Part shown: positions 26,690 through 47,123 of the stretch, piece after piece | How positions within the stretch are numbered: the first letter of the stretch is position 1 | Layout of the letters: the number at the start of each line of letters is the position of its first letter | Source of the DNA: Ruminococcus sp. Phil11 | Lineage (GTDB): Bacteria > Bacillota > Clostridia > Oscillospirales > Ruminococcaceae | Reading direction: 5' to 3' | DNA length: 64,000 bases | NCBI GenBank assembly: GCA_001940925.1 | Contig: MSGZ01000011.1 | Location: 1 to 64,000, forward strand | Program-made: the position numbers and the translations under genes | The notes under the pieces: model-generated | The model's database searches: none | Told to the model about the DNA's origin: nothing | What the model saw: the letters and a program-made list of their open reading frames with translations, nothing else

Positions 26690-29275
26690 ATGGAGTTATT
26701 CCGCAGCAGAACCCGTAGAAAGATCGCGGCGGTGATGGCAGTTATCACGGCAGCTGCTTCCGTACCGTTCTCGAGTTCTATGCCCGTTACCGCGGCCGTC
26801 ACGGATCCGGCCGGTGACTACAACTACGCAAAGGCATTGCAGTATTCGATCTATTTCTACGATGCCAACATGTGCGGAACAGAGGTCGGTGAACACACCC
26901 GCCTTTCATGGCGTGATGATTGCCACACCTATGACGCGCATGTTCCGATGGTGCCATGGGACGGTAATACGGTGGAAGGCGGCGGCACCAACCTTTCGCA
27001 GGCATTCATGGACAAATACAAGGATGTTCTTGACCCGGACGGCGACGGAACGATTGATGTTGCCGGCGGTATGCATGATGCCGGCGACCACGTTGAATTC
27101 GGTATGCCTGAAAACTACGCGGCCGCAACGCTCGGATGGGGATACTATGAGTTCCGGGATTCCTATGTCAAACTTCATCAGGATGATCACATCGAGACGG
27201 TTCTCCGTCACTTCAACGACTATCTGATGAAGTGTACATTCCGCGACAAAGACGGTACAGTCATTGCACACTGCTATCAGGTCGGTGAAGGCGGGATCGA
27301 CCATGCCATCTGGGAGGCTCCCGAGATCGACACGATGGTACGGCCGGCTTACTTCCTGACCGCTGAAAAGCCCCAGACTGATTATGTTGTATCTGCGTGC
27401 GGTTCTCTTGCGATCAACTACCTGAATTTCAAGGACACAGATCCGGAATATGCAGAGAAGTGCCTTGACTATGCAAAAGCTCTCTGGGATTTCGCCAACA
27501 CCAATGAAAAAGAACTTTCCGACAACGGCGACGGCCCCGGACAGTTCTATAATTCCAGCAAGTGGGAAGATGATTACTGCTGGGCAGCGGCATGGATGTA
27601 CAGAGCGACCGGCGATGCCTCTGTATTTGATTACGCCTACAAGATTTTCGACTATTATGCAGCTTCCGGCTGGGTATATTGCTGGAACGATATGTGGAGC
27701 GGTGCTTCCATCCTCTGGGCTGCAATCAATCAGGAACACCCTGAGCTTGACATGGTGCAGAAAATCAGAGATGCACAGGGCAAAAACGAGTATGTATTCG
27801 ATGACTTCTGGGATAATGACTGCGTCGGCAAGATTCTGAGTACGTATAAGGCAAAAACTACCCCGCAGGGTATGGTCTTTATTGACGTCTGGGGAAGCTG
27901 CCGTTATGCTTCTGCATTTGCACTTTGCTGTGCCGTATATGACAAGTACCATAACAACGGTCAGCCAAGCGAGTGGAGTGAGTTTGGAAAAAAGCAAATT
28001 GACTACATCCTCGGCGACAATGATATTACCTACAAGGAAACCGAAAAGCAGACGGTTCTGGCCGGAAGAAACGGCGATCACGGCAAGAGAGTTTTCCTGT
28101 GCGGCTATGACGAAACCTATTCCGTTATGAATCCGCACCACCGTGCTGCCTCCGGACTCACAATGGCAGAGGATCCCCGCAAGCAGAAGCATACACTCTG
28201 GGGTGCGCTGGCCGGCGGACCTGACAACAAAGATGCACACAGCGACAGCACCAATGACTGGCGTGAAAACGAGGTTACGATCGACTATAACGCAGCATTC
28301 GTCGGTGCCTGTGCAGCGATGTATCAGTACTACGGCACAGATGATATGAAGGTCACTGAGAACTTCCCGCCTGCCGAACAGATCAGCGAGGAAGAACAGC
28401 AGGGCGGAAGCGGCTACTGGGTCGAAGCAATGGGACGTGATGTCCGCAATGATGACGGCACCGGTGCTGTGGAGGTTTCCCTCAAGGTATATTCCGGTCT
28501 GCCCAAGCCCTCGAAGGACATTACAATCAGATACTATATCGACCTTTCTGAAGTCGCAAAACCGGATATTGTACATGCTAAGAAGCTGTACGATCAGGCA
28601 GAGGCCGAAATCAAGGGCTCTTCCATCGAAGTCAAAGATCCCGTTAAATGGGATAAGATGGATAATGTATACTATGTTGAGCTCAAATGGGATGGCTGTA
28701 CTTTTGCCAACAGCGGTAAGAAGACACAGTTTGAGGTCGGCTTCTACGGCATCGGTTATACCGATCCGGATACTCACAAATATATCGTATACGACTGGGA
28801 TCCGACGAATGACTGGAGCTTTAAGACACTGAAGCTGGGCGAAAAGGGCGACTTCTATGAAGTAGAGAACCCGCCTGAGGTGCTCAACGAACATATCTGC
28901 ATCTATGACAACGGTGTATTGGTCGGCGGTATCGAACCTGACGGCACAGAACCGGAAGAGAATGCTGCATCTGCTGCCACAACGACCGTCAACCCGAATG
29001 CTTCTGAAAACAAAACTACGACGACAAAGGCTGCTGTCACGACGGCCGGCACGCCGAATAAAGTAACTGTTACCTTGATCGGTGATGCCAACTGCGACGG
29101 CAAGGCAGACGTTTCCGATGCTGTTCTGATCGCCAGAATCGCTGTTGAGGACAAGGCTGCCGTGATTACCTCGCAGGGTATTGCAAACGGCGACTGCAAC
29201 AGAGACGGTTCTCTGTCTCCGGATGACATCGTCGCACTGCTGCGCCACATCGCAAAAATCGAGATCCTGAAATAA
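26690..29275 (+). CDS. Cellulosomal GH9 cellulase with CBM3 and dockerin
   Basis: The 861-aa secreted enzyme should hydrolyse cellulose. A signal peptide (about 1-36) is followed by the GH9 barrel (about 42-560). It carries D130-AGD-D133 (the pair that holds water/base), the NPHHRAASG motif and a late WRENEVTIDYNAAF with the acid Glu. A CBM3c-like module (about 575-745; YYIDLSEV, YVELKWDG) normally feeds a cellulose chain to the active site. A Thr/Ala linker leads to a C-terminal type I dockerin with two Ca loops (DANCDGKADVSDA and DCNRDGSLSPDD). This architecture is that of processive endoglucanases. The start has AGGAGGG upstream. Confidence 0.93.
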   Translation: MELFRSRTRRKIAAVMAVITAAASVPFSSSMPVTAAVTDPAGDYNYAKALQYSIYFYDANMCGTEVGEHTRLSWRDDCHTYDAHVPMVPWDGNTVEGGGTNLSQAFMDKYKDVLDPDGDGTIDVAGGMHDAGDHVEFGMPENYAAATLGWGYYEFRDSYVKLHQDDHIETVLRHFNDYLMKCTFRDKDGTVIAHCYQVGEGGIDHAIWEAPEIDTMVRPAYFLTAEKPQTDYVVSACGSLAINYLNFKDTDPEYAEKCLDYAKALWDFANTNEKELSDNGDGPGQFYNSSKWEDDYCWAAAWMYRATGDASVFDYAYKIFDYYAASGWVYCWNDMWSGASILWAAINQEHPELDMVQKIRDAQGKNEYVFDDFWDNDCVGKILSTYKAKTTPQGMVFIDVWGSCRYASAFALCCAVYDKYHNNGQPSEWSEFGKKQIDYILGDNDITYKETEKQTVLAGRNGDHGKRVFLCGYDETYSVMNPHHRAASGLTMAEDPRKQKHTLWGALAGGPDNKDAHSDSTNDWRENEVTIDYNAAFVGACAAMYQYYGTDDMKVTENFPPAEQISEEEQQGGSGYWVEAMGRDVRNDDGTGAVEVSLKVYSGLPKPSKDITIRYYIDLSEVAKPDIVHAKKLYDQAEAEIKGSSIEVKDPVKWDKMDNVYYVELKWDGCTFANSGKKTQFEVGFYGIGYTDPDTHKYIVYDWDPTNDWSFKTLKLGEKGDFYEVENPPEVLNEHICIYDNGVLVGGIEPDGTEPEENAASAATTTVNPNASENKTTTTKAAVTTAGTPNKVTVTLIGDANCDGKADVSDAVLIARIAVEDKAAVITSQGIANGDCNRDGSLSPDDIVALLRHIAKIEILK

Positions 29276-35152: not shown

Positions 35153-35875
35153 TCACGCTTTGGACAGGTCGATCTCGGTCACGACGCCGTTCGCAAGAAT
35201 GATCTCAAGCAGGCCGTCCGCAGTCGTCTTGCTGATGAAGTCATCACTGTCTCCTGCACCGTAAGCCTTCTTCACATCTTCCAGCTTGCTTCCGACATGA
35301 ATGCCCTCTCTCGTGGAGACGCCTGCGCCTGTGAGCTTGATTATCTCGATCTTTTCGACACCGTTATCCACGTTGACGAGAACGCTGAAATCCTGATAGT
35401 AATATTCATAGTTTATGCCGCTGAGGCAGCTGTCGCTTTCGGTCTTATCGAGGGGATTGTGCGATGCACGGTAATCCGCCGCACTTGCGCCGATCTTCAG
35501 CGCATCAAAGAGATGCTGCTCCTGCTTCGGAGCCTCCGTTGCAGGAGCGGGTGCCTCCGTCTGCGGTGCCTGTGTTGCGGGTGCTTCGGTCTGCTGTGCC
35601 TGCTCTGCGGTCGTGACGGCAGCCTCCGTGACGGTCGTCGTTTCGGTTTCCGCCGCATCCGTCGCGGTCTCGGTTGCCTGTTCCTCGGCTGCAGTCGTCT
35701 TTTCAGCAGCCGTCGTAGTTTCCTCGGTTTCTTCGGCAGTCGTTTCCGTCACCTCGGTGACGGCCGTGGTCTCAGCCATGCTGTTGTCCGTCGTGATCGG
35801 ATCCGAACCGCAGGCGGTCAGAGCCGCAGCACCGAGCACCGCCAGAAGAATTGCCGTAAGCTGTAATTTTCTCAT
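35153..35875 (-). CDS. Lipoprotein with Thr/Glu-rich linker
   Basis: The 240-aa protein has a lipobox (AALTAC), then about 90 residues of Thr/Glu/Ala-rich low-complexity linker. The C-terminal domain of about 115 residues shows two similar halves (ALKIGASAADYRASHNP and GIHVGSKLEDVKKAYGAG), a repeat typical of BLIP/SmpA-like beta-lactamase-inhibitor folds. It is the first gene of the unit with the MBOAT and DHHW genes. Role unknown; a surface-exposed binding domain on a flexible stalk is likely. The ATG at 35875 fits the signal peptide; an ATG at 35887 is also in frame. Confidence 0.65.
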   Translation of the reverse strand: MRKLQLTAILLAVLGAAALTACGSDPITTDNSMAETTAVTEVTETTAEETEETTTAAEKTTAAEEQATETATDAAETETTTVTEAAVTTAEQAQQTEAPATQAPQTEAPAPATEAPKQEQHLFDALKIGASAADYRASHNPLDKTESDSCLSGINYEYYYQDFSVLVNVDNGVEKIEIIKLTGAGVSTREGIHVGSKLEDVKKAYGAGDSDDFISKTTADGLLEIILANGVVTEIDLSKA

Positions 35876-35906: not shown

Positions 35907-38045
35907 TCAAATCGGGGTATATGTCGCACTGACCAGTGCACCCTTATGATCGTAAGTAGCATTGACATAACCGCGCAGGGTATAGCCCGGCCTGCCGTTA
36001 TTTCTGTCAGCCTGATTCTGCTGCTCCATCGTGATATGGCAGCGGTTCATGCCGTAGGTCGGGTCATAGTTCCACCAGACACCGTCAATCAGCACCTGAC
36101 ACCAGTAATGGTGCGAATTGTGCCATGCGTATACAACGCGGGAGGTGAAACCAGCACGCTTGAACGTGAAGTCGAGTGCTGCAGCCAGATGATAGCAGAC
36201 GCCGCCGCCTCTGTTGATACTGGTGTCAATCAGTGTTTGCCAGCCGGCGTTCAGCAGCCGATCTGTCGTGCGCGCAACTTCGATTTCTTTGTACTTGTAT
36301 TTTGCACAGAAACTCTGATACACGCCGTTCACGGTCTTGGCAGAATTATTGATGATATTGTCAAAGGTGATTGCACGGTTGTTGCGCGCAGAACCGTTCG
36401 CGTCGATCGTGCAGCCGTCCACCGTTGAGGAAACGACCATAACGCCGTCCGCGCCGAAGTAGCTGGACTGATCCGGCAGCTCCTGCCAGCCGGTATGGGC
36501 AATACCGTTTGCATCTGCATAATATTTTTTGCCGTTTGCCGCAGTAAACAGACCTGTCGCAAGTGTGCCGTCCGTTTTGAACACATAGACTTTGCTGTCA
36601 ACCGCAGTCGGAACCGTCACCAGTACGCCGGACGCGCTGAAGTAATACTTGACGCCGCCGATCGTCTGCCAGCCGGTCACGGCAGCACCGTCTGTTCCGA
36701 TATAACGCTTCGTACCGTCAGCCGCGGTGCTCCAGCCGCCTTCCAGCAGACCGTCCTTATTGAAGTAATAGGTCTGGCCGTCAATGACAGTCGCAGACGT
36801 TGCCATGACGCAGTCTGCATCGAAGTAATATTTGTTTCCGCTGATCGTCTGCCAGCCGGTCACAAGCACACCGTCAGCATCGGCATAGTATTTTTTCCCG
36901 TTGTCAGCCGTGTACCAGCCCGTCACGATATCGCCGTTCGCATCGAACAGATAGGTCTTTCCGTCGATCTTCGTCGGGGTCGCGGCAATGCTGCCGTCCG
37001 GATTCAGGTAATACTTCTTGCCGCCGACCGTGATCCAGCCCGTAAGCCGTTTGCCGTTCGCATCAAAGAAGCAGCGCAGCTTCTTTCCGCTCGCATCGGT
37101 CACATCCTGAAAACCGGTCTGCATGATGCCTTCGGAATCAAAATAGTATGTGTCACTGCCGACCGTGCAGAGGCCGGTCAGCATAACGCCGTTTTCGCCG
37201 AAGTACCGTTTTCCGCCCTTTGTATCGGCAAAACCGGTCACCATGGCACCGTCATCGCCGAACAGATAGGTCTTGCCGGAAACGGTATACATCCCCGTGA
37301 AGATCTGACCGTCGTCAAGCAGCTTATATTGCCTGCCGTCGATGACCTGCCAGCCGGTCAGCACACCCTTTTCCGCATCAATATAGAAGCGTTTGCCGTC
37401 TGCATCGGTGATAAAGCCGGTGACTTTGCCCTTTTCCGCGTCGGCATAGAACTTGCTGCCGTCTGTTTCGGTGATCCAGCCGGACTTGATCTCATGCGTT
37501 TTGGCATCGTAATAGCGGGTGATGCTGTCCGTTGCAGCAGTCTGCCAGCCGGTTTTCAGCACGCCGCTGTCCGTGAACAGATAGGGGACACCGTCGATCA
37601 GCATTTCGCCGTAAGCATCCTCATAGACCCAATCGCCGTCCGCAGTCTGCTGCCATTTGTCACAGACACCGTATTCATCGAACATGAGCGTCCGGGAACC
37701 GGTCGTCACCTTGCCGGTGCGCTTGCCTTCTTCCTTGGTGACGTAATAGGTTTCGCCGCGCCACTCGACCCAGCCGAACACGGCCTCGCCCTTCTGATTA
37801 TAGTAGTAGCGCTTGCCGTCAACGGTCTGCCAGCCGAGCTGCTGTACGCCGTTCGGTGCAAAAACATACGCAACGCCGTCGATCGTGACGGTACCGGTCG
37901 CTTTTTTGCCGTCAGCGTCATAATAAAACCGCTTTCCGTTTTCGGTTTTCCAGCCGGCTTCCGCCGCAAATGCAGGGAGCGCAAGTGCTGATGCTGCACC
38001 CAGGCAGACAGCCGAAAGCGTGATCGCGGTCAGGGATCGTTTCAT
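35907..38045 (-). CDS. Cell-wall-binding repeat protein with transglutaminase-like domain
   Basis: The 712-aa secreted protein has a signal peptide (LPAFAAEA) followed by over twenty 20-residue GWxTxxGKxYYxxxDG repeats of the choline-binding/glucan-binding type (about 30-540). The C-terminal transglutaminase-like domain (about 565-690) shows the Cys in GGGVCYHLA, the His in NSHHYWCQVLIDG and the Asp in NYDPTYG. The repeats should hold it to wall polymers or glucans; the domain may cleave or crosslink peptides. The ATG at 38045 starts the signal peptide behind GAGGTG. Confidence 0.85.
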   Translation of the reverse strand: MKRSLTAITLSAVCLGAASALALPAFAAEAGWKTENGKRFYYDADGKKATGTVTIDGVAYVFAPNGVQQLGWQTVDGKRYYYNQKGEAVFGWVEWRGETYYVTKEEGKRTGKVTTGSRTLMFDEYGVCDKWQQTADGDWVYEDAYGEMLIDGVPYLFTDSGVLKTGWQTAATDSITRYYDAKTHEIKSGWITETDGSKFYADAEKGKVTGFITDADGKRFYIDAEKGVLTGWQVIDGRQYKLLDDGQIFTGMYTVSGKTYLFGDDGAMVTGFADTKGGKRYFGENGVMLTGLCTVGSDTYYFDSEGIMQTGFQDVTDASGKKLRCFFDANGKRLTGWITVGGKKYYLNPDGSIAATPTKIDGKTYLFDANGDIVTGWYTADNGKKYYADADGVLVTGWQTISGNKYYFDADCVMATSATVIDGQTYYFNKDGLLEGGWSTAADGTKRYIGTDGAAVTGWQTIGGVKYYFSASGVLVTVPTAVDSKVYVFKTDGTLATGLFTAANGKKYYADANGIAHTGWQELPDQSSYFGADGVMVVSSTVDGCTIDANGSARNNRAITFDNIINNSAKTVNGVYQSFCAKYKYKEIEVARTTDRLLNAGWQTLIDTSINRGGGVCYHLAAALDFTFKRAGFTSRVVYAWHNSHHYWCQVLIDGVWWNYDPTYGMNRCHITMEQQNQADRNNGRPGYTLRGYVNATYDHKGALVSATYTPI

Positions 38046-38192
38046 TCCGAGCACCTCATTTCTTAGATTGCGCGGCCGTTTCCGGCGTTCGCGCATACAT
38101 ATTCAACATATTATATCACATGGCGAAATCTTTGTCAAGCGTTCAGACGGGGGAGTAAATTATGAAATTTTTGTTAATTTTGATCCGGGATA

Positions 38193-38281: not shown

Positions 38282-39862
38282 ATGAAAAACATGACAAAAA
38301 GATCGGTTAGCCTCATTTCTGCAATCCTGCTCTGCGCAGGCAGCACAGTCAGTGCATTTGCCGAGGCCGGGCAAGATTTGTATCTGCGGGGGGACATTAA
38401 CAGAGACGGCGCAGTGACAGTCGAGGATGCACAGCTTGCGCTGGTCGCGTACACAAACACGGTTGCAGAGAAACCGACCGGTTTCAAGCATCCGGTTCAG
38501 ATGGAGGCTGCCAATGTTCTGTGTGACAATGAGTTTGATGTTGCTGATGTACAGTGCATTCTCAAGTACTACGTGGAAAATACTGTCAGCAAGAGAACCG
38601 TCACATGGGATCAGGTGACCGGCCGTGACAAGCTGACCGTCCCGGATACCGGCGAGGAGCTGGTCATCCGTGCCGCAACCAATTACTACGATCTTGAAGT
38701 GATGATCCGTCAGTTCACTGAACGGCATCCGGAATACAAAGGCAAGGTACGTGCGGAGTATCTTTCACTGCCTGACGAGAACGGTGCTGCGAGCTGGAAG
38801 CCCGAAGAATGGGAAGAATATATCGAAAAGGCCGAGGATACGGATATCTTCTATATGGACAAGTGGTTTATGTTCAACTGCGTGAACAATGATACGCTCT
38901 CGTTCCCGGTTTCCGCACTCGGATTTACAGACTCCGATTTTGCGAATATGTATCCCTATACCCTTGAAATCGGAACAAGCCTCAACGGTGATCTGAAAGC
39001 ACTGACAGCCACAGCTACACCGAGCGGATTTATCTACCGCACCGACCTTGCCGAGAAATATCTCGGAGTAAAAACACCCGCCGAAATGCAGAAGCTGATC
39101 GGCAGCTGGGAAGACTTTGAAAAGACTGCCAAAACGGTTCGTGACAAATCAGAGGGCAAGACGGCATTAACCGAAGGCGGTATCGGAATGGATAACGCCG
39201 TGCTCTGTAATCTGACCGAACCGTGGTTTGATGAAAATCTGAAAGAAACTGTCCCGGAACAGCTGAGGCAGGTTGCTTCGCGTTACGAATCTTTCAGCCG
39301 GAACGGTTATCTGTGCGACGACTATATGTTCTCTGAAAGCTGGGAAGACACCTTACAAAGCGATGCGCTCTTGGGCTACTTTATTCCGAATTGGCTGCTG
39401 AAAGACGATTTATTATTTATACCGGGTTTCGGCGACGTTGAGGACAGGCCGTTTTACGGCAAATACAATTTGGTACAAGGACCTGCTGCTTACCACTGGT
39501 CCGATCAGTATTTATTTGTTTCGCCTCACTGTGATAACAAAACGCTTGCTTATGAGTTTCTGAGCGAGTTCACAGTCAATGAAGAAACCATGACTGCATT
39601 TGCCAATGAGACCGGTGATTTCCTCAACAATTCTTCCGTCATGAAGAAGTTTGCCGCTTCGGATAAAGGCACTGCTTCGCTCGGAGGACAGAAGATCATC
39701 GGGCTGCTGGATGAGATCGCTGCCGCATCCCATTCGCTGAAAGAATATACGCCGGCTTGTGAAAATCTCAGCAGCACGTTCATGTTCGAAGTGAGAGAGG
39801 CTGTGGAAAACGGCACTCCGATTGAAGATCTCTACCAGAGGGAAGTCGAATATGTTTTATAA
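38282..39862 (+). CDS. N-terminal dockerin fused to an ABC-type solute-binding protein
   Basis: The 526-aa protein has a signal peptide (TVSAFA), then a dockerin at about residues 34-100. Its first Ca loop is good (DINRDGAVTVEDAQLAL); the second is weaker (NVLCDNEFDVADVQC). Residues 120-526 resemble family 1 extracellular sugar-binding proteins: LVIRAATNYYDLEVMIRQF, a Lys/Trp-rich middle, TPAEMQKLIGSWEDFEKTAK, and a C-terminal AYEFLSEFTVNEE. No lipobox or transporter genes are nearby. It would be displayed in a cellulosome or on the surface rather than serve a classic ABC importer (inference). Confidence 0.75.
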   Translation: MKNMTKRSVSLISAILLCAGSTVSAFAEAGQDLYLRGDINRDGAVTVEDAQLALVAYTNTVAEKPTGFKHPVQMEAANVLCDNEFDVADVQCILKYYVENTVSKRTVTWDQVTGRDKLTVPDTGEELVIRAATNYYDLEVMIRQFTERHPEYKGKVRAEYLSLPDENGAASWKPEEWEEYIEKAEDTDIFYMDKWFMFNCVNNDTLSFPVSALGFTDSDFANMYPYTLEIGTSLNGDLKALTATATPSGFIYRTDLAEKYLGVKTPAEMQKLIGSWEDFEKTAKTVRDKSEGKTALTEGGIGMDNAVLCNLTEPWFDENLKETVPEQLRQVASRYESFSRNGYLCDDYMFSESWEDTLQSDALLGYFIPNWLLKDDLLFIPGFGDVEDRPFYGKYNLVQGPAAYHWSDQYLFVSPHCDNKTLAYEFLSEFTVNEETMTAFANETGDFLNNSSVMKKFAASDKGTASLGGQKIIGLLDEIAAASHSLKEYTPACENLSSTFMFEVREAVENGTPIEDLYQREVEYVL

Positions 39863-39925: not shown

Positions 39926-40891
39926 TCAGCAGGAGGAAATAATTGTTGCAGACGTAGCAGCACTGACTGCGATCATGACCGCAATATAGATCGCGGCATT
40001 GACGGAGATGTATTCCGTGATCGCGTAATGCGGCTTCTGCAGCGTGGAAAGGATCATCGCGGCGTGCATCAGGCGCGTCTGCTGATCTTCGCCGAAAAAG
40101 CCCTTGTATTCCGGATGTTCTGCCAGAACAGCGTCGATCTCAAGGATCTCCGCGGCAGTCTGTGCAGGTTCAAGCTCCGGGAGCACTAATGCAGCAAGGA
40201 TCGTCATGCGGATATCCTTGGCATATTTCCGGCCGTTCTGCGCCAGCGCGTCATACAGTGCCGCGATGCGTCCGCACTTTTCTTCGACAGGCGCATCCGA
40301 CAGTGCAAACACATGCGAAAGCGTCTGCACGGCATTGTCGCTCGCAAATTTCCGCAGATATGTATAGATCTGTTCCGTTTCCGCAATCAGCATTTCGTCC
40401 GGCTTCTGCGACTGTGCCAGCATCACGCAGTAGGGGGCATCCTCGGTGCCGGTCAGCAGCGGGTGCAGCTTCTGCATATTTTTATACAGCGCACGGCTGC
40501 GCTCGATCACAGCCGGGATTTGCTCCGGACTGCAGGTGTCGTCGAGCAGAAAGGCCGTCGTCGCAAGATGCGAGGAATCAACATAGCTCTTTTTCAGCAG
40601 CTGATAATTCTGCTGCACGCGGGCAAGCTTGGTTTCCGGCTCACCGCTCAGCAGCATCGAGCTGCAGGTGAACATTTCCGCACTGGCACGGAAAGAGGAA
40701 AACATCCCTTCCTTCGACTTCAGCAGTCTGCGGCACTGTTCCAGACCTTCCGCATCTGCTGCGGCATCCTTCGCGCAGAACAGATTTGCGCAGGCCGCGT
40801 AGTTGACGCCGTTATCGAGCTTGAACACCGATTTCAGCACCCGGTAGTTCTCAAAATAGCTTGCGATCATCGCATTCGTTGCTTCGTTCAT
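39926..40891 (-). CDS. DUF4003-like protein
   Basis: The 321-aa protein is all-helical, with the DUF4003 patterns KLDNGVNYAACANLFCAK, GMFSSFRASAEMFTCSSMLL, SSHLATTAFLL and PYCVMLAQSQK. A hydrophobic C-terminal tail (about 297-318) could be a membrane anchor. The family has no known function. It is followed on the same strand from the CobW-like GTPase gene by 14 bp, so the two are probably one operon. Confidence 0.7.
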   Translation of the reverse strand: MNEATNAMIASYFENYRVLKSVFKLDNGVNYAACANLFCAKDAAADAEGLEQCRRLLKSKEGMFSSFRASAEMFTCSSMLLSGEPETKLARVQQNYQLLKKSYVDSSHLATTAFLLDDTCSPEQIPAVIERSRALYKNMQKLHPLLTGTEDAPYCVMLAQSQKPDEMLIAETEQIYTYLRKFASDNAVQTLSHVFALSDAPVEEKCGRIAALYDALAQNGRKYAKDIRMTILAALVLPELEPAQTAAEILEIDAVLAEHPEYKGFFGEDQQTRLMHAAMILSTLQKPHYAITEYISVNAAIYIAVMIAVSAATSATIISSC

Positions 40892-42621: not shown

Positions 42622-43562
42622 ATGGAATGAAACTGTCCGAAATGCTGAACGGTCTGCCGGATGATATGATCCTTGCTGCATATACCGGTTCATACCGAAC
42701 AGCGCAGACTGAATCCGCGGCAGATTTTGCAGCCGGTCAGACTGTGCAGCAGGGGAGTACGGCAGGTATTTCCGCGCCGCGCTGGATCACAGCGGCTGCA
42801 CTGGCTGCCTGTATGCTGTTTGCGGTCGGCGTCGCTGCGGTGCTGATCCGCTCAGACCGAGAAGAACTGACGATGCAGAGTATGCAGGAAGATTCCGCGG
42901 TGCAGGTCGTGACTGCGGCTTATACCGTGACATATTCCGCAGCACAAAGTGTAATAACGCAGACATCGTATACAGCGGCAGTGATCGTGACCGAAGATAC
43001 GCAAACCGAGACTGCTGCTGAAATGCAGACTACAGAATCAGAGCAAACTGCGCAGGAAGAAACGACAGCTTCTACAGCCGGCACTAAGACGACTATGCCC
43101 GAATCAACCACGGTTACACAGATCGAAACAAGTATGCTACCCGCTGAAAAGTATTCCTCAAAAGTGATGAATGATGTTGTGAATGCAATTGAAGCGGGTG
43201 AAACCAGAATCCCCGTTCAGCTGACCTTCAAACGGGTCGATGTAGAAGCGCAGGCACGGAAAGCCGCGCAGGAATACGAACAGACACTTGATCCTGCATT
43301 CTATTCACCGGATGAGATCAATCAGATGACCGGTGATTATTATATTCGAATCCACAATGAACTATATGTTCAGGCAATCAAAGAGCGTTCTGCCGAAATC
43401 ATGGAGAAACTGAGTATCGACTCGGATTCCGCAGTCTGTTATTCCGAATCCGAAAAAATCTCATGCACACTCACACCCGAACAGATCGCTGCTGCAGATC
43501 AATATGACATGATCACACGGATTGCAAAGGGTTATGTCTGGAGCTATACCGAGGAAAACTGA
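42618..43562 (+). CDS. Putative membrane anti-sigma factor
   Basis: The 314-aa protein has a short cytosolic part (about 1-55; KLSEMLNGLPDDMILAAY), one membrane segment (about 57-80), a Thr/Glu-rich linker (about 85-175) and an extracellular helical domain (about 180-310; YSPDEINQMTGDYYIRIHNELY). It overlaps the sigma gene by 4 bp and starts with GTG, 7 bp after GAGGAGG. Position and topology indicate an anti-sigma factor with an outside sensor; no zinc HxxxCxxC motif is present. A secreted dockerin protein is encoded next in the operon. Confidence 0.65.
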   Translation: MNGMKLSEMLNGLPDDMILAAYTGSYRTAQTESAADFAAGQTVQQGSTAGISAPRWITAAALAACMLFAVGVAAVLIRSDREELTMQSMQEDSAVQVVTAAYTVTYSAAQSVITQTSYTAAVIVTEDTQTETAAEMQTTESEQTAQEETTASTAGTKTTMPESTTVTQIETSMLPAEKYSSKVMNDVVNAIEAGETRIPVQLTFKRVDVEAQARKAAQEYEQTLDPAFYSPDEINQMTGDYYIRIHNELYVQAIKERSAEIMEKLSIDSDSAVCYSESEKISCTLTPEQIAAADQYDMITRIAKGYVWSYTEEN

Positions 43563-43587
43563 TACCGATTTAAAAGGAGGTAATATT

Positions 43588-44223
43588 ATGAAAACATTGA
43601 CGAAAGCCGTATTTTGCTCTGCTGCCGCAATCTCTCTGATGTGTACTGCGATTTCTGCATTCCCGGTATCTGCAGAGATTCAGCCTGAGAGCCCGACAAT
43701 TGTTTTTCCGAACGCTGTGAATTCGACCACAACGACCACAATTACGGTTGCAGAGGCCGAAAAAATCGACGACCCGGAAAAAGTCCGCAAAATGATAACA
43801 AAGCTGATTTCGGAGAACGGCTTGCAGGCAAGAGTTGCAAACAACGAGCAATATCCGGGATATATGCAGCCAATCATCATTGAAGTCGTAATCGTGGAAG
43901 GACAGACCTCGGCAAATCAGGTCATCACTGACTTTGCAGAAGCGTACCGTATAGACAGACGAACATTCACCATTGTCCCATTCGTGAACGGATCAGCCGT
44001 TACAACCGTAAATCCTGTTTCAGAGCTTATGCTTTGGGGTGATGCGGACTGTTCCGATCAAATTGATATTTCCGATGCGGTTCTCACGGCAAAATTTGTC
44101 GCAGAGGACGCAGGAGCAAGCATTACGGATCAGGGAAAACTGAATGCCGATACGAACGGAGACGGCAATATTACGCTTGAGGATACCGAACTGATCCTGA
44201 AGCGGATCGCGAAAAAAATCTGA
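43588..44223 (+). CDS. Small secreted dockerin protein in the ECF operon
   Basis: The 211-aa protein has a signal peptide (SAFPVSAE), a Thr-rich patch, a small alpha/beta domain (about 50-135; VRKMITKLISENGLQARV and PIIIEVVIVEGQTSANQV) of unknown family, and a C-terminal type I dockerin (DADCSDQIDISDAVL and DTNGDGNITLEDTELIL). It follows the anti-sigma gene by 25 bp with AGGAGGT. Its link to a membrane signalling pair suggests a cellulosome-state sensor or regulated structural part (inference). Confidence 0.8.
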   Translation: MKTLTKAVFCSAAAISLMCTAISAFPVSAEIQPESPTIVFPNAVNSTTTTTITVAEAEKIDDPEKVRKMITKLISENGLQARVANNEQYPGYMQPIIIEVVIVEGQTSANQVITDFAEAYRIDRRTFTIVPFVNGSAVTTVNPVSELMLWGDADCSDQIDISDAVLTAKFVAEDAGASITDQGKLNADTNGDGNITLEDTELILKRIAKKI

Positions 44224-44277: not shown

Positions 44278-46857
44278 TTATGCAAGCAAAATGCGTTTCA
44301 GGAGCGTCAGATCAACCGCATCAATGCGGCCGTTATCATTGAGATCGCCTGCCTGCCAGTCAGCAAGAGAGCTGCTCCCCGCAAGGAATTTTACCATTGC
44401 AACGGCATCGGCAATATTGACCGCACCGTCTGCATTGACGTCGCCTTTCAGCTTGGCGGCGGTTGCCTGACCGGTGATCTCCGCCTCGCTGAGCGCATAA
44501 GGATAAACCGCAATATTATCCAGATATCCGGAAAAGCCGACATCGTCGGAATAGAACGATTTGCCGAACAGCAGCTTCGTATTCGTACCCATGTCGGACG
44601 GATTCGTATTCAGCGTATCGGTCTCCGCGGCAAGCTGTCCGTCCACATACAGCCTGCACGTTGTCGGCGTGACCGCAAAGACATACCGGTGCCACTGTGT
44701 TCCGTCGAGGTCAAAACGCATACCCGTTTCGCCTTTCCACGTATCTACGGTCGTCTGGAAGCGGAAATGATCCTTTGCAATTTTGAAGAATGCATATTTG
44801 TATTCATCCTGCCCCGTTGCGAAGGTGAAGAAATTGCCGTCCGAAGACGATTTTGCGTCCATGCAGACCGTGTATTCCCGGCAGTTGTCCAGCAGTCCGG
44901 GTTCGACTGCAGCGTAGTCATCGGCCGTGCCGCCGAAATACAGCACATTGCCGCGCTGCGCATCCTGCTGCACTTTGGTATTGCCGTACAGCGTCAGCGT
45001 ATGGCCGTTTCCGGTCGTGTCGGGAATGTTTTTGCCGTTTGCCTGCTCAAAATCAAAGGCTGCGCCGTTCTTGTTCTGTGCCGGTTCGCCGAGCGGATCG
45101 CCGTAGATTTTGACCTCATAGACCGTCGGGTTATACCAGTTGTTCGTCGGGTTATTCTGCAGCGTCGCGCTTTTGACATTCAGACGCACATATCTTGCCC
45201 TGCCGGAAATGAGATTGCTGTTGAAGCCATAGGTTTTGGAAACAATTTCCTTGCTCGTGTTGGTATGATCGTAGATCGTTGTCCAGTTCCGGCCGTCTGA
45301 ACTGCCGTCCACCGTATAGGCATAATAGCCCTCGGAGCCCTTGCAGATATACCATGAAATCTGGATGTTTTTCAGTTCACATTCCCGTTCCAGATCAACT
45401 GTCAGCGTGAACGGCCATTTCTTGGAGCTCTCGACCGCCGAAAAGCAGCTGCGGTAGGAGCCGTCAAACGCCTTGCAGGGCGCATTCCAGCCCTGTGCCG
45501 CAAGCGACGAAGTCGCGGGTTTATCCTGCGAGAGCAGCTGTCCCTGCTGCACCGGATAGAGGTCGCCGGTCTTGGTGCTGTACTTGAAATACGGATAATA
45601 ATCGTAAAACGCAAAGCCGTTGTCGAAGTAAAGCGGGCAAAGCGTCGTGCCGCTCGATTCCGAAGCGCGCAGCCAGCGGTAGGCGTGCATGAGGTAATTT
45701 TTGTCCTGCAGATTGACGATCCAGCCGGACTGCGACGAGAATGTCGAGGTGTTGCCGATATCCCGCAAACCGCTCCAATCGCCCGCAATATCCTTCGTGA
45801 CCGCATACGCGCCGCTGCTCGGATACCAGCCGGCCGCCTGCGAGGTAAACAGGAAATAGTAGCCGTTCTTCTTGATCATGTTCGGAAATTCGCGGTACTG
45901 ATCGGCAAACAGTTTTTTGACGACTGCTGTGACGTCGCTGTATTCCTTGTTCATGCGGAAAATGTACATGGTCGCATTTGCGCCCTGTCCCTTCGTATTT
46001 GCGGCCGCGATCAGATAACCGGTGTGATCCGCGTCGTCGTCAAAGAAGATCGCCATGTCGCGGACTTCGATGTCAAGCGGATTGTACACATGATGCACCG
46101 TGAACTGTCCGCCCGGCGTTCCGGTGATGACCAGTGCCTTGCCGTCCGCATAGCCGCTCGGCTTTTCCCAGTGCGCCCAGACCACGACCTTGTTTGCGTG
46201 TTCGAGATATTCGATATGCACGGATTCGATCTTGCAGCTCGCGAGTGCACTGTTCTGCGAGGAATCCGCGACGTTGCGCTCATTGCCGAAATGCACGCCG
46301 TCAGACGAGGTCGTTTCCGCCAGATAGATATCGTCCTTGCCTGCGTGCTTTTTCAGCGAATAGCTGTAATAGGTATTGCCGGATTTGTAGCCGCCCGTTT
46401 CGTAGACAAGGCTGCTGCCCTTCTGGTTGTCGTAGGTGCTGAGACCGGACGGCAGGGCGCAGGGCTTCAGCGAGCGCACGCCGGAATACAGCGCGCCCTT
46501 GTCTGTCACCGCCTTGAGCTGATAGTAGTATTCCGTGCCGACTGTCAGGTCGTCATCCTCATACGAATTGCCGTAGCCCTCATATACCTTGACAAAGCCG
46601 GTTTCCGGATCAGTCGAGCGGTAAAGCGTATAGCCGTCGGCAGAAAGCGTCGTTGCCCACTGGAGCGCGGCATGATCAGCATTGCTGCTGTCCGGTGTAC
46701 AGAACAGATTGCCGACCAGACCGATCTGTTCGGAGATGTCTGCCGAAGCTTTCTGTCCCTGCACTGCGGCCTTTGCCGGAAATGCCGCAAGCATCGCAGT
46801 CAGTGCAGTGACCGCACCGATCAACAGGGCGGTCAGCTTTTTTCTGTAACTTTTCAT
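44278..46857 (-). CDS. Modular GH43-like, CBM32-like, LamG, dockerin protein
   Basis: The 859-aa secreted protein has a signal peptide (AAFPAKAA) and a fibronectin-III-like segment (about 30-135: ALQWATTLSADGYTLYRS). A five-bladed propeller region (about 140-455) contains SRDM-type VRDMAIFFDDDADHTGYLIAAA as in GH43 subfamily 24 exo-galactanases. An F5/8-type C (CBM32-like) domain (about 465-590), a LamG-like domain (about 605-790; WHRYVFAVTPTTCRLYVDG) and a C-terminal dockerin (DVNADGAVNIADA; DLNDNGRIDAVDL) follow. It probably acts on galactan or arabinogalactan side chains; the exact activity is uncertain. Confidence 0.75.
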   Translation of the reverse strand: MKSYRKKLTALLIGAVTALTAMLAAFPAKAAVQGQKASADISEQIGLVGNLFCTPDSSNADHAALQWATTLSADGYTLYRSTDPETGFVKVYEGYGNSYEDDDLTVGTEYYYQLKAVTDKGALYSGVRSLKPCALPSGLSTYDNQKGSSLVYETGGYKSGNTYYSYSLKKHAGKDDIYLAETTSSDGVHFGNERNVADSSQNSALASCKIESVHIEYLEHANKVVVWAHWEKPSGYADGKALVITGTPGGQFTVHHVYNPLDIEVRDMAIFFDDDADHTGYLIAAANTKGQGANATMYIFRMNKEYSDVTAVVKKLFADQYREFPNMIKKNGYYFLFTSQAAGWYPSSGAYAVTKDIAGDWSGLRDIGNTSTFSSQSGWIVNLQDKNYLMHAYRWLRASESSGTTLCPLYFDNGFAFYDYYPYFKYSTKTGDLYPVQQGQLLSQDKPATSSLAAQGWNAPCKAFDGSYRSCFSAVESSKKWPFTLTVDLERECELKNIQISWYICKGSEGYYAYTVDGSSDGRNWTTIYDHTNTSKEIVSKTYGFNSNLISGRARYVRLNVKSATLQNNPTNNWYNPTVYEVKIYGDPLGEPAQNKNGAAFDFEQANGKNIPDTTGNGHTLTLYGNTKVQQDAQRGNVLYFGGTADDYAAVEPGLLDNCREYTVCMDAKSSSDGNFFTFATGQDEYKYAFFKIAKDHFRFQTTVDTWKGETGMRFDLDGTQWHRYVFAVTPTTCRLYVDGQLAAETDTLNTNPSDMGTNTKLLFGKSFYSDDVGFSGYLDNIAVYPYALSEAEITGQATAAKLKGDVNADGAVNIADAVAMVKFLAGSSSLADWQAGDLNDNGRIDAVDLTLLKRILLA

Positions 46858-47123
46858 GATAACCCCTTTCGTTCCCCCGTAAGTTTGAATTTGTATGATA
46901 TGTTTCTCTGCTAACCAGTATAGCACATTTTTTTACGATTTGCAAGAGCATTTTGTATGGTATATACCGCAATTTCTGAACAGGAAACCGCAAAAGCGCA
47001 AAAAACAGGATAACATTTTGATATAAAAGTACATGATGTGATATCAGAATCCGGCATGATACGGTATAATAATAGCATAAATAAGTCCGCATCCCCCTTG
47101 TGCGGACATCGGGAGGAATTACC

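Follow-up and report, generated by a model that had tools for sequence, protein, structure and literature searches.

Ruminococcus sp. Phil11 carries a gene (38282..39862; this and all parts of the gene given below lie on the forward strand) for a protein in which a signal peptide is followed by an N-terminal dockerin and then by an ABC-type sugar solute-binding protein (SBP) domain. Our reading of this protein is an anchor swap on a duplicated SBP, and relatives appear to have made the same exchange of lipid anchor for dockerin several times. The gene would then encode a duplicated, CebE-like ABC SBP that serves in the scaffold-displayed capture of oligosaccharides for a separate ABC uptake system, an account that we hold tentatively, at slightly less than an even chance. 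The window, that is, the whole stretch of DNA analysed, spans 64,000 nucleotides with a GC content of 54% and belongs to a 3.7-Mb genome. This is a cellulosome genome, with 28 cohesin matches at E<=1 (21 of them over cut-off) and at least 149 dockerin matches (150 of 291 candidates scored).

A dockerin joined to a sugar-binding fold

The gene is a single open frame of 526 amino acids. Sequence and relatives indicate a signal peptide at residues 1-27 (38282..38362) with a proposed cut after AFA, and the dockerin occupies residues 34-115 (38381..38626) and the SBP domain residues 119-526 (38636..39862, stop codon included). The earlier note, made from the sequence alone, had proposed a dockerin fused to an ABC-type sugar-binding protein, and the Pfam SBP domain, dockerin homology and the structural model confirm the fusion. 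Its remark that a lipobox is absent is likewise confirmed by the sequence: Leu precedes Cys18, and the AxA site AFA (residues 25-27) comes after it.

The SBP domain matches PF13416 with an E-value of 1.7e-7 (31.7 bits, cut-off 27); PF01547 scores 20.4 bits, below its cut-off of 26, and an NCBIfam scan of the protein assigned no family. Among solved structures, the cello-oligosaccharide-binding protein CebE (8bfy) is matched at 3.1e-8 with the single sequence and at 5.2e-20 with a family profile, and 5ixp at 1.4e-8 with the family profile. An AlphaFold2 model built on a 28-row alignment reached a pLDDT of 83.6 and a pTM of 0.81, and Foldseek placed 5ixp first (TMt 0.79), CebE with cellotriose second (0.66) and further sugar SBPs thereafter. 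The model of a sibling fusion (L012) is better (pLDDT 89.1) and has the identical top two matches. The two-lobed SBP fold is found by AlphaFold2, Foldseek and PF13416 alike; a C-terminal domain of another fold, which the earlier note had named as the result that would count against it, is ruled out by the first two. A plain pseudogene is ruled out by the open frame and by dN/dS values below 1 (see below). In a single scan of genome contigs, one relative turned up: a distant SBP from a MAG of Mageeibacillus.

Lipid anchors and dockerins in the SBP family

The nearest relative in the same genome is the C30 SBP (L002), a member of the same SBP family that is 39% identical over residues 116-481 and is followed by two BPD_transp_1 permeases. 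It is a lipoprotein, with a lipobox and a low-complexity tether where the window protein has its dockerin, and its cleft motifs CWT, SWQATP and WGG are intact, unlike those of the window protein. All six lipoprotein loci examined in the genus pair the SBP with two permeases. The genome of the window has another, distant lipoprotein SBP (L039, G000:C27:55000-70000; 24% to the window protein), which has a permease nearby and adjoins ORFs read manually as a putative GH3 beta-xylosidase and a xylose isomerase, surroundings that resemble the xylo-oligosaccharide locus of FD-1 (PMC2721979).

The window fusion gene stands alone. Searches with the two cognate permeases found no homologue among the ORFs of at least 80 residues in the 64-kb window (phmmer E<=1e-3), and Pfam reported no ABC permease or ATPase among 20 ORFs scanned between about 26.7 and 55.4 kb, the window gene included, so that, within what was scanned, the earlier note's remark on the absence of a permease and ATPase nearby is supported. 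Permease homologues were also absent from nine other stretches around fusions of the genus (7.4-19 kb) and from the surroundings of three fusions in other genera (12-16 kb).

Within the genus, 24 of 30 genomes had a match at E<=1e-20, and eight of the 30 have dockerin-SBP fusions, ten in all; G016 has three, and the one in G019 is truncated by the end of its contig. In the family, 57 of 197 genomes had a match at E<=1e-25, with at least three further fusions in three other genera (two dockerin repeats in L102, a single one in L108 and in L114); all three genomes hold a separate lipoprotein copy with two permeases. In the order sample, a match was found in 27 of 394 genomes, with no additional fusion among the loci read. 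N-termini were read for the 75 distinct proteins (hmmsearch E<=1e-25) of the fetched loci, so the fusion counts for family and order are lower bounds; two suspected fusions (G031 and G208) proved to be lipoproteins. Cohesin matches exceeded the cut-off in all ten other fusion genomes, although those of G166 are weaker (best E 3.4e-6), leaving it outside the 48 of 197 genomes with matches at 1e-7. The search for the same fusion in other cellulosome producers, suggested in the earlier note, thus found it in other cohesin-bearing genomes of the genus and of three other genera. This recurrence rules out a one-off fusion or an assembly artefact, and the maintenance of the architecture in other genomes argues that it is more than chance.

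The two anchors are distributed in a mutually exclusive manner. A lipobox-like motif, by a broad pattern of our own drawn up after the sequences had been seen, is present in 61 of the 63 members without a dockerin and in none of the 12 with one; the two remaining members are incomplete at the N-terminus. In a tree of the SBP domain from which the anchor region was excluded, the dockerin label requires four changes, all forced by starred branches, and none of 500 label shuffles was as low (mean 11.0). Nine fusions of the genus form one starred group; starred branches also join each of L102, L108 and L114 to a lipoprotein partner. The tree was built by a 'quick' method and contains long rows; four rows, among them all three of the window clade, have an unusual letter composition. 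It holds 56 of the 75 proteins, those dropped before the label changes were counted being the incomplete L110 and, apart from the outgroup L039, dockerin-less members scoring below 330; the contig-end-cut G019 fusion lies outside both the tree and the 12 dockerin members. The tree itself does not separate gain from loss of the dockerin, but gain is the simpler reading because these lineages keep lipoprotein copies with permeases.

The dockerin and its candidate partner

The dockerin falls below the Pfam cut-off (12.7 bits, E 0.15; cut-off 22.9). It matches the solved ScaH dockerin 8ajy at 0.0011 as a single sequence and at 4e-7 with a family profile, and dockerins of the same genome resemble it down to about 2e-17 in tblastn-type searches and to 1.4e-19 with phmmer. 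These matches to 8ajy and to many dockerins of its own genome indicate that it is real and rule out a chance resemblance. Helices were modelled at residues 47-61, 71-77 and 87-102. The protein is secreted and has the paired F-hand repeats and calcium loops of a dockerin, the second loop being degenerate. Loop 1 (residues 38-49, 38393..38428; D38, N40, D42 and D49, from the sequence and the 8ajy alignment) is canonical, with V47-E48 where Ruminococcus flavefaciens ScaH has Gly-Arg. Loop 2 (residues 78-89, 38513..38548; N78, L80, D82 and D89, from the sequence) has V87-A88 at the recognition positions, so that Gly-Arg is absent here too, and its N-x-L-x-D pattern is common to the window protein and both orthologues.

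Loci fetched from the same genome contained 33 distinct ORFs matching this dockerin, all of which were scanned with Pfam. Twelve are leucine-rich-repeat (LRR) proteins and seven bear cohesins: Pfam at E<=0.01 identifies five (two below cut-off), and the others are L003 (below cut-off) and the ScaB-like protein at L096:12248-14917, whose cohesins come from the genome cohesin search and were not reported by Pfam at 0.01. Six others carry NPCBM, PIG-L, GDSL lipase, DUF6935, Flg_new and zinc-ribbon domains, one is a serpin (the weakest kind of match), seven are uninformative, and no glycoside hydrolase domain was found by Pfam in any of the 33. Two tandem arrays were noted in this genome: six dockerin-serpin genes in a row, confirmed by Pfam (L041:2164-14107; G000:C42, about 137.2-149.1 kb), five on one strand and one on the other, an exceptionally rich complement of protease inhibitors borne on the scaffold; and five head-to-tail LRR-dockerin genes (L078:1027-10559; G000:C25), all of the window protein's dockerin class.

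In R. flavefaciens FD-1, group-4 dockerins, including that of ScaH, bind ScaE through Gly-Arg pairs, which places them at the cell surface (PMC5301203, PMC2930009), and most dockerins of LRR proteins are reported to have bound none of the cohesins tested (PMC5301203). Since the Gly-Arg pairs are absent, a strict group-4 assignment of the window dockerin was rejected in favour of a group-4-like one, and any cohesin partner is a prediction. Halves of the ScaB-like protein's own dockerin match the window dockerin (E 0.00057 and 0.0086), and this member of the sca cluster has the related motif VSVDDVQ. The gene after it (L096:15014-16003) encodes a cohesin, and its C-terminus, with VQTGE followed by a hydrophobic stretch and KRRK, resembles a sortase-type anchor; by its sequence it looks like a ScaE-like gene with a sortase-type tail. 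The ScaE-like cohesin of the genome lies at C5:37157-37558. The dockerin class would point to scaffoldins or the cell surface as the location of the window protein. The placement in the cellulosome or at the surface put forward in the earlier note is therefore likely, being backed by the scaffoldins and LRR proteins of the class and by the likeness to ScaH.

A remodelled cleft

CebE holds cellotriose by W303, F282, F70 and D173, among other residues, with most contacts at the non-reducing end and the pocket closed to solvent around the sugar (PMC10714786). A manual reading of the alignment puts W318, W296, W85 and Q191 of the lipoproteins at these four positions. The window protein stays aromatic at the first two, with W371 (39392..39394) aligned to the sugar-stacking W303 and F350 (39329..39331) aligned to F282, where the lipoproteins have Trp; both assignments are by alignment. 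An aromatic residue has been lost at A132 (38675..38677), the position of lipoprotein W85 and, by manual mapping via 5ixp, of CebE F70. W406-S407-D408 (39497..39505) stand where the lipoproteins and the other fusions have WGG, and the remaining changes from the lipoprotein are W190 to A243, Q191 to T244 and Q295 to M349.

The window clade stands apart at two of these sites. W85 is Trp in all 24 lipoproteins and all nine other fusions, and Ala, Ala and Ile in the three-species clade of the window; WGG is kept in all nine other fusions and replaced by WSD, YDD and WPV in the window clade. Among the 122 SBP positions kept in at least 22 of the 24 lipoproteins, members of the window clade retain 53-59 and the nine other fusions 78-91. 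The G015 orthologue has Val at the position of W371. Loss of the ligand cleft, a result that the earlier note took as evidence against its proposal, is therefore half borne out: W85, W190, Q191, Q295 and WGG are changed, and W371 and F350 are still aromatic. We conclude from these alignments that the window-clade cleft has probably been remodelled rather than erased. Because several conserved cleft residues changed, the ligand is probably not the one of the lipoprotein paralogue, and sugar capture is plausible for the family and, with less confidence, for the window protein.

The changed cleft would also suit a protein that targets in the manner of a carbohydrate-binding module, gripping chain ends or side chains on insoluble glycans of plants to promote adhesion of the cell or complex, with no role in uptake. 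The occurrence of its dockerin class on scaffoldins and LRR proteins, without enzymes, the lack of a permease nearby and the predominance of non-reducing-end contacts in CebE (PMC10714786) all agree with such a role. The closed CebE pocket, however, suits short soluble ligands rather than polymers (PMC10714786), and the nine other fusions retain most importer-type residues, so we regard this role as unlikely.

Direct delivery to the importer is less probable again. A second SBP handing sugar from the wall side to C30-type permeases would extend the reach of the importer, and it would draw on two facts, namely that the window protein shares its family with a permease-linked lipoprotein and that every genome with a fusion outside the genus also has the lipoprotein operon. 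Yet all 12 fusions lack the membrane tether, and the window clade is far from the lipoprotein (29-33%).

Divergence within the window clade

The locus is syntenic with that of G015, a sister species. Proteins of the MBOAT, DUF4003, CobW and GH43-like genes are 94-97% identical between the two (dS 0.21-0.25) and the lipoprotein paralogue is 99% identical, whereas the two genes upstream of the fusion stand at 80-81% (dS 0.58 and 0.63). Within the fusion gene, signal peptide and dockerin are 83% identical (dS 0.32) and the SBP domain 58% (dS 1.87). In 150-bp steps, identity is 95-97% before and at the gene start, 83-87% in the dockerin, 56-65% in seven of the eight steps of the SBP module (83% in the other) and 99% at 40001-40150. 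Other diverged stretches are the choline-binding repeats at 36551-37600 (66-83%), 35351-35500 (63%) and 42851-44200, where identity drops to 39-70% between well conserved flanks; this last stretch takes in a small dockerin protein (43522-44223) as well as the final part of the gene that follows the one for the ECF sigma factor. The excess in dS of the SBP module relative to the rest of the fusion gene approaches saturation and stands out clearly in one pair, window and G015. The branch leading to the window clade in the SBP tree has a length of 1.59.

This pattern fits a recombination event that replaced the SBP module in one of the lineages. Contrary to such an exchange, window and G005 show no contrast between the parts of the gene (dS 0.84 and 0.76), a second syntenic pair (L033 and L014) has no excess divergence of the SBP module, and a third comparison (L013 and L015) shows a threefold rise across the whole fusion gene. 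We consider it somewhat unlikely, though worth weighing, that cellulosome bacteria repeatedly (four switches) moved a duplicated ABC sugar receptor off its membrane lipid and onto a cohesin scaffold, and so produced a scaffold-borne oligosaccharide trap that would retain hydrolysis products at the wall and connect the cellulosome with the importer, its module in the window clade being fast-changing, exchanged by recombination and of new specificity.

The same figures could be taken to mean that sugar binding has been or is being lost in the window clade, leaving a surface protein that varies, for example to avoid phages or antibodies, or simply drifts. The module's dS set against that of its neighbours and of the signal peptide and dockerin, the long branch and the lost cleft residues would all be expected of such a protein. 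However, dN/dS is below 1 in every stretch for which it could be computed (highest 0.88), so that the SBP domain seems constrained; the two upstream neighbours are raised as well, which suggests that the whole locus is lively; and W371 and F350 are kept and L033/L014 is free of excess. Lost binding is, on balance, improbable.

Genomic surroundings

Upstream on the opposite strand lie a gene for a choline-binding-repeat protein with a transglutaminase-like domain, one for a small protein and one for an MBOAT protein; downstream are genes for a DUF4003 protein and a CobW protein and then an ECF sigma-factor gene. A sensor subunit signalling the presence of extracellular glycans to a membrane receptor, in the manner of the SBP CuaD of Ruminiclostridium cellulolyticum, which works with the two-component system CuaSR (PMC10384115), could be imagined from this sigma-factor gene 2.2 kb downstream, but the idea has little probability, since two opposite-strand genes intervene, nothing ties the two functionally and no two-component system was seen among the 20 window ORFs scanned with Pfam.

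Three other proteins of the window deserve mention. That at 35907-38096 is the secreted choline-binding protein, with its transglutaminase-like domain at the C-terminus and repeats that diverge between window and G015. The protein at 44278-46926 combines GH43-like, F5/8C and laminin-G-like domains with a dockerin of the enzyme type, which differs from the one on the window SBP, and the one at 26690-29275 combines GH9 and CBM3, with no dockerin by Pfam at 0.001.

Proposed role and comparison with known systems

In the favoured account of scaffold-displayed capture, the lipoprotein original would stay beside its two permeases, and the dockerin copy would be secreted and plug into cohesins of small or wall-anchored scaffoldins, a ScaE-type anchor being the first guess for the partner. 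A cleft-type glycan receptor would thereby come to sit on a cell-surface scaffold adjoining the cellulosome. There it would most likely capture and retain soluble oligosaccharides or glycan ends that cellulosomal enzymes have freed, so that their concentration at the wall would rise and the separate ABC system could take them up. We infer cohesin partner, surface position, sugar binding and benefit alike. Against this account stand the missing Gly-Arg pairs and degenerate second loop of the dockerin, the cleft aromatics lost in the window clade and the greater distance of a scaffold-bound SBP from the permease, as well as the prevalence in the dockerin class (12 of 33) of LRR proteins, a type whose dockerins are reported to have mostly failed to bind the cohesins tested (PMC5301203).

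The fusion bears on how cellulosome bacteria keep released sugars from rivals. A glycan receptor that docks into the scaffold and arose repeatedly from an importer's SBP would, if true, be a direct link between hydrolysis and uptake, and would offer a ready-made module for designer cellulosomes. No dockerin-bearing sugar SBP of a cellulosome producer was recognised in titles and abstracts among the matches listed from the open-access literature, and the word 'solute' is absent from the main texts of the three dockerin surveys examined. As a Pfam SBP domain exceeds its cut-off only in the window protein and three of the ten other fusions scanned, they may be counted in published surveys as dockerin proteins of 'unknown' type.

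The nearest precedent found is in ANME archaea, in which dockerins are likewise joined to ABC substrate-binding components and such proteins are called common (PMC9012536). These are, however, of the NikA/OppA and TroA types, in methanotrophs, rather than sugar SBPs; the same source describes archaea with such domains as lacking large scaffoldins, yet scaffoldin-like proteins of ANME are reported in it (PMC9012536). The group-4 dockerins of R. flavefaciens (ScaH, ScaF, ScaB and CttA, all binders of ScaE) resemble the window dockerin through the match to ScaH (8ajy), and scaffoldins of the window genome bear dockerins of its class. The window dockerin differs from group 4 in the absence of Gly-Arg, in its degenerate second calcium loop and in its N-terminal position. 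CuaD, too, is an SBP of a cellulosome producer, but it acts in signalling rather than transport and is encoded beside its own two-component system; the abstract makes no mention of a dockerin (PMC10384115). CebE, the cluster B cello-oligosaccharide SBP of Streptomyces scabiei (8bfy), is with 5ixp the best solved relative and shares the fold at about 16% identity in the structural alignment. The equivalents of its W303 and F282 are aromatic in the window protein, but CebE serves an ABC importer, whereas the window protein has a dockerin, no lipobox, no permease nearby and changes at other contact positions.
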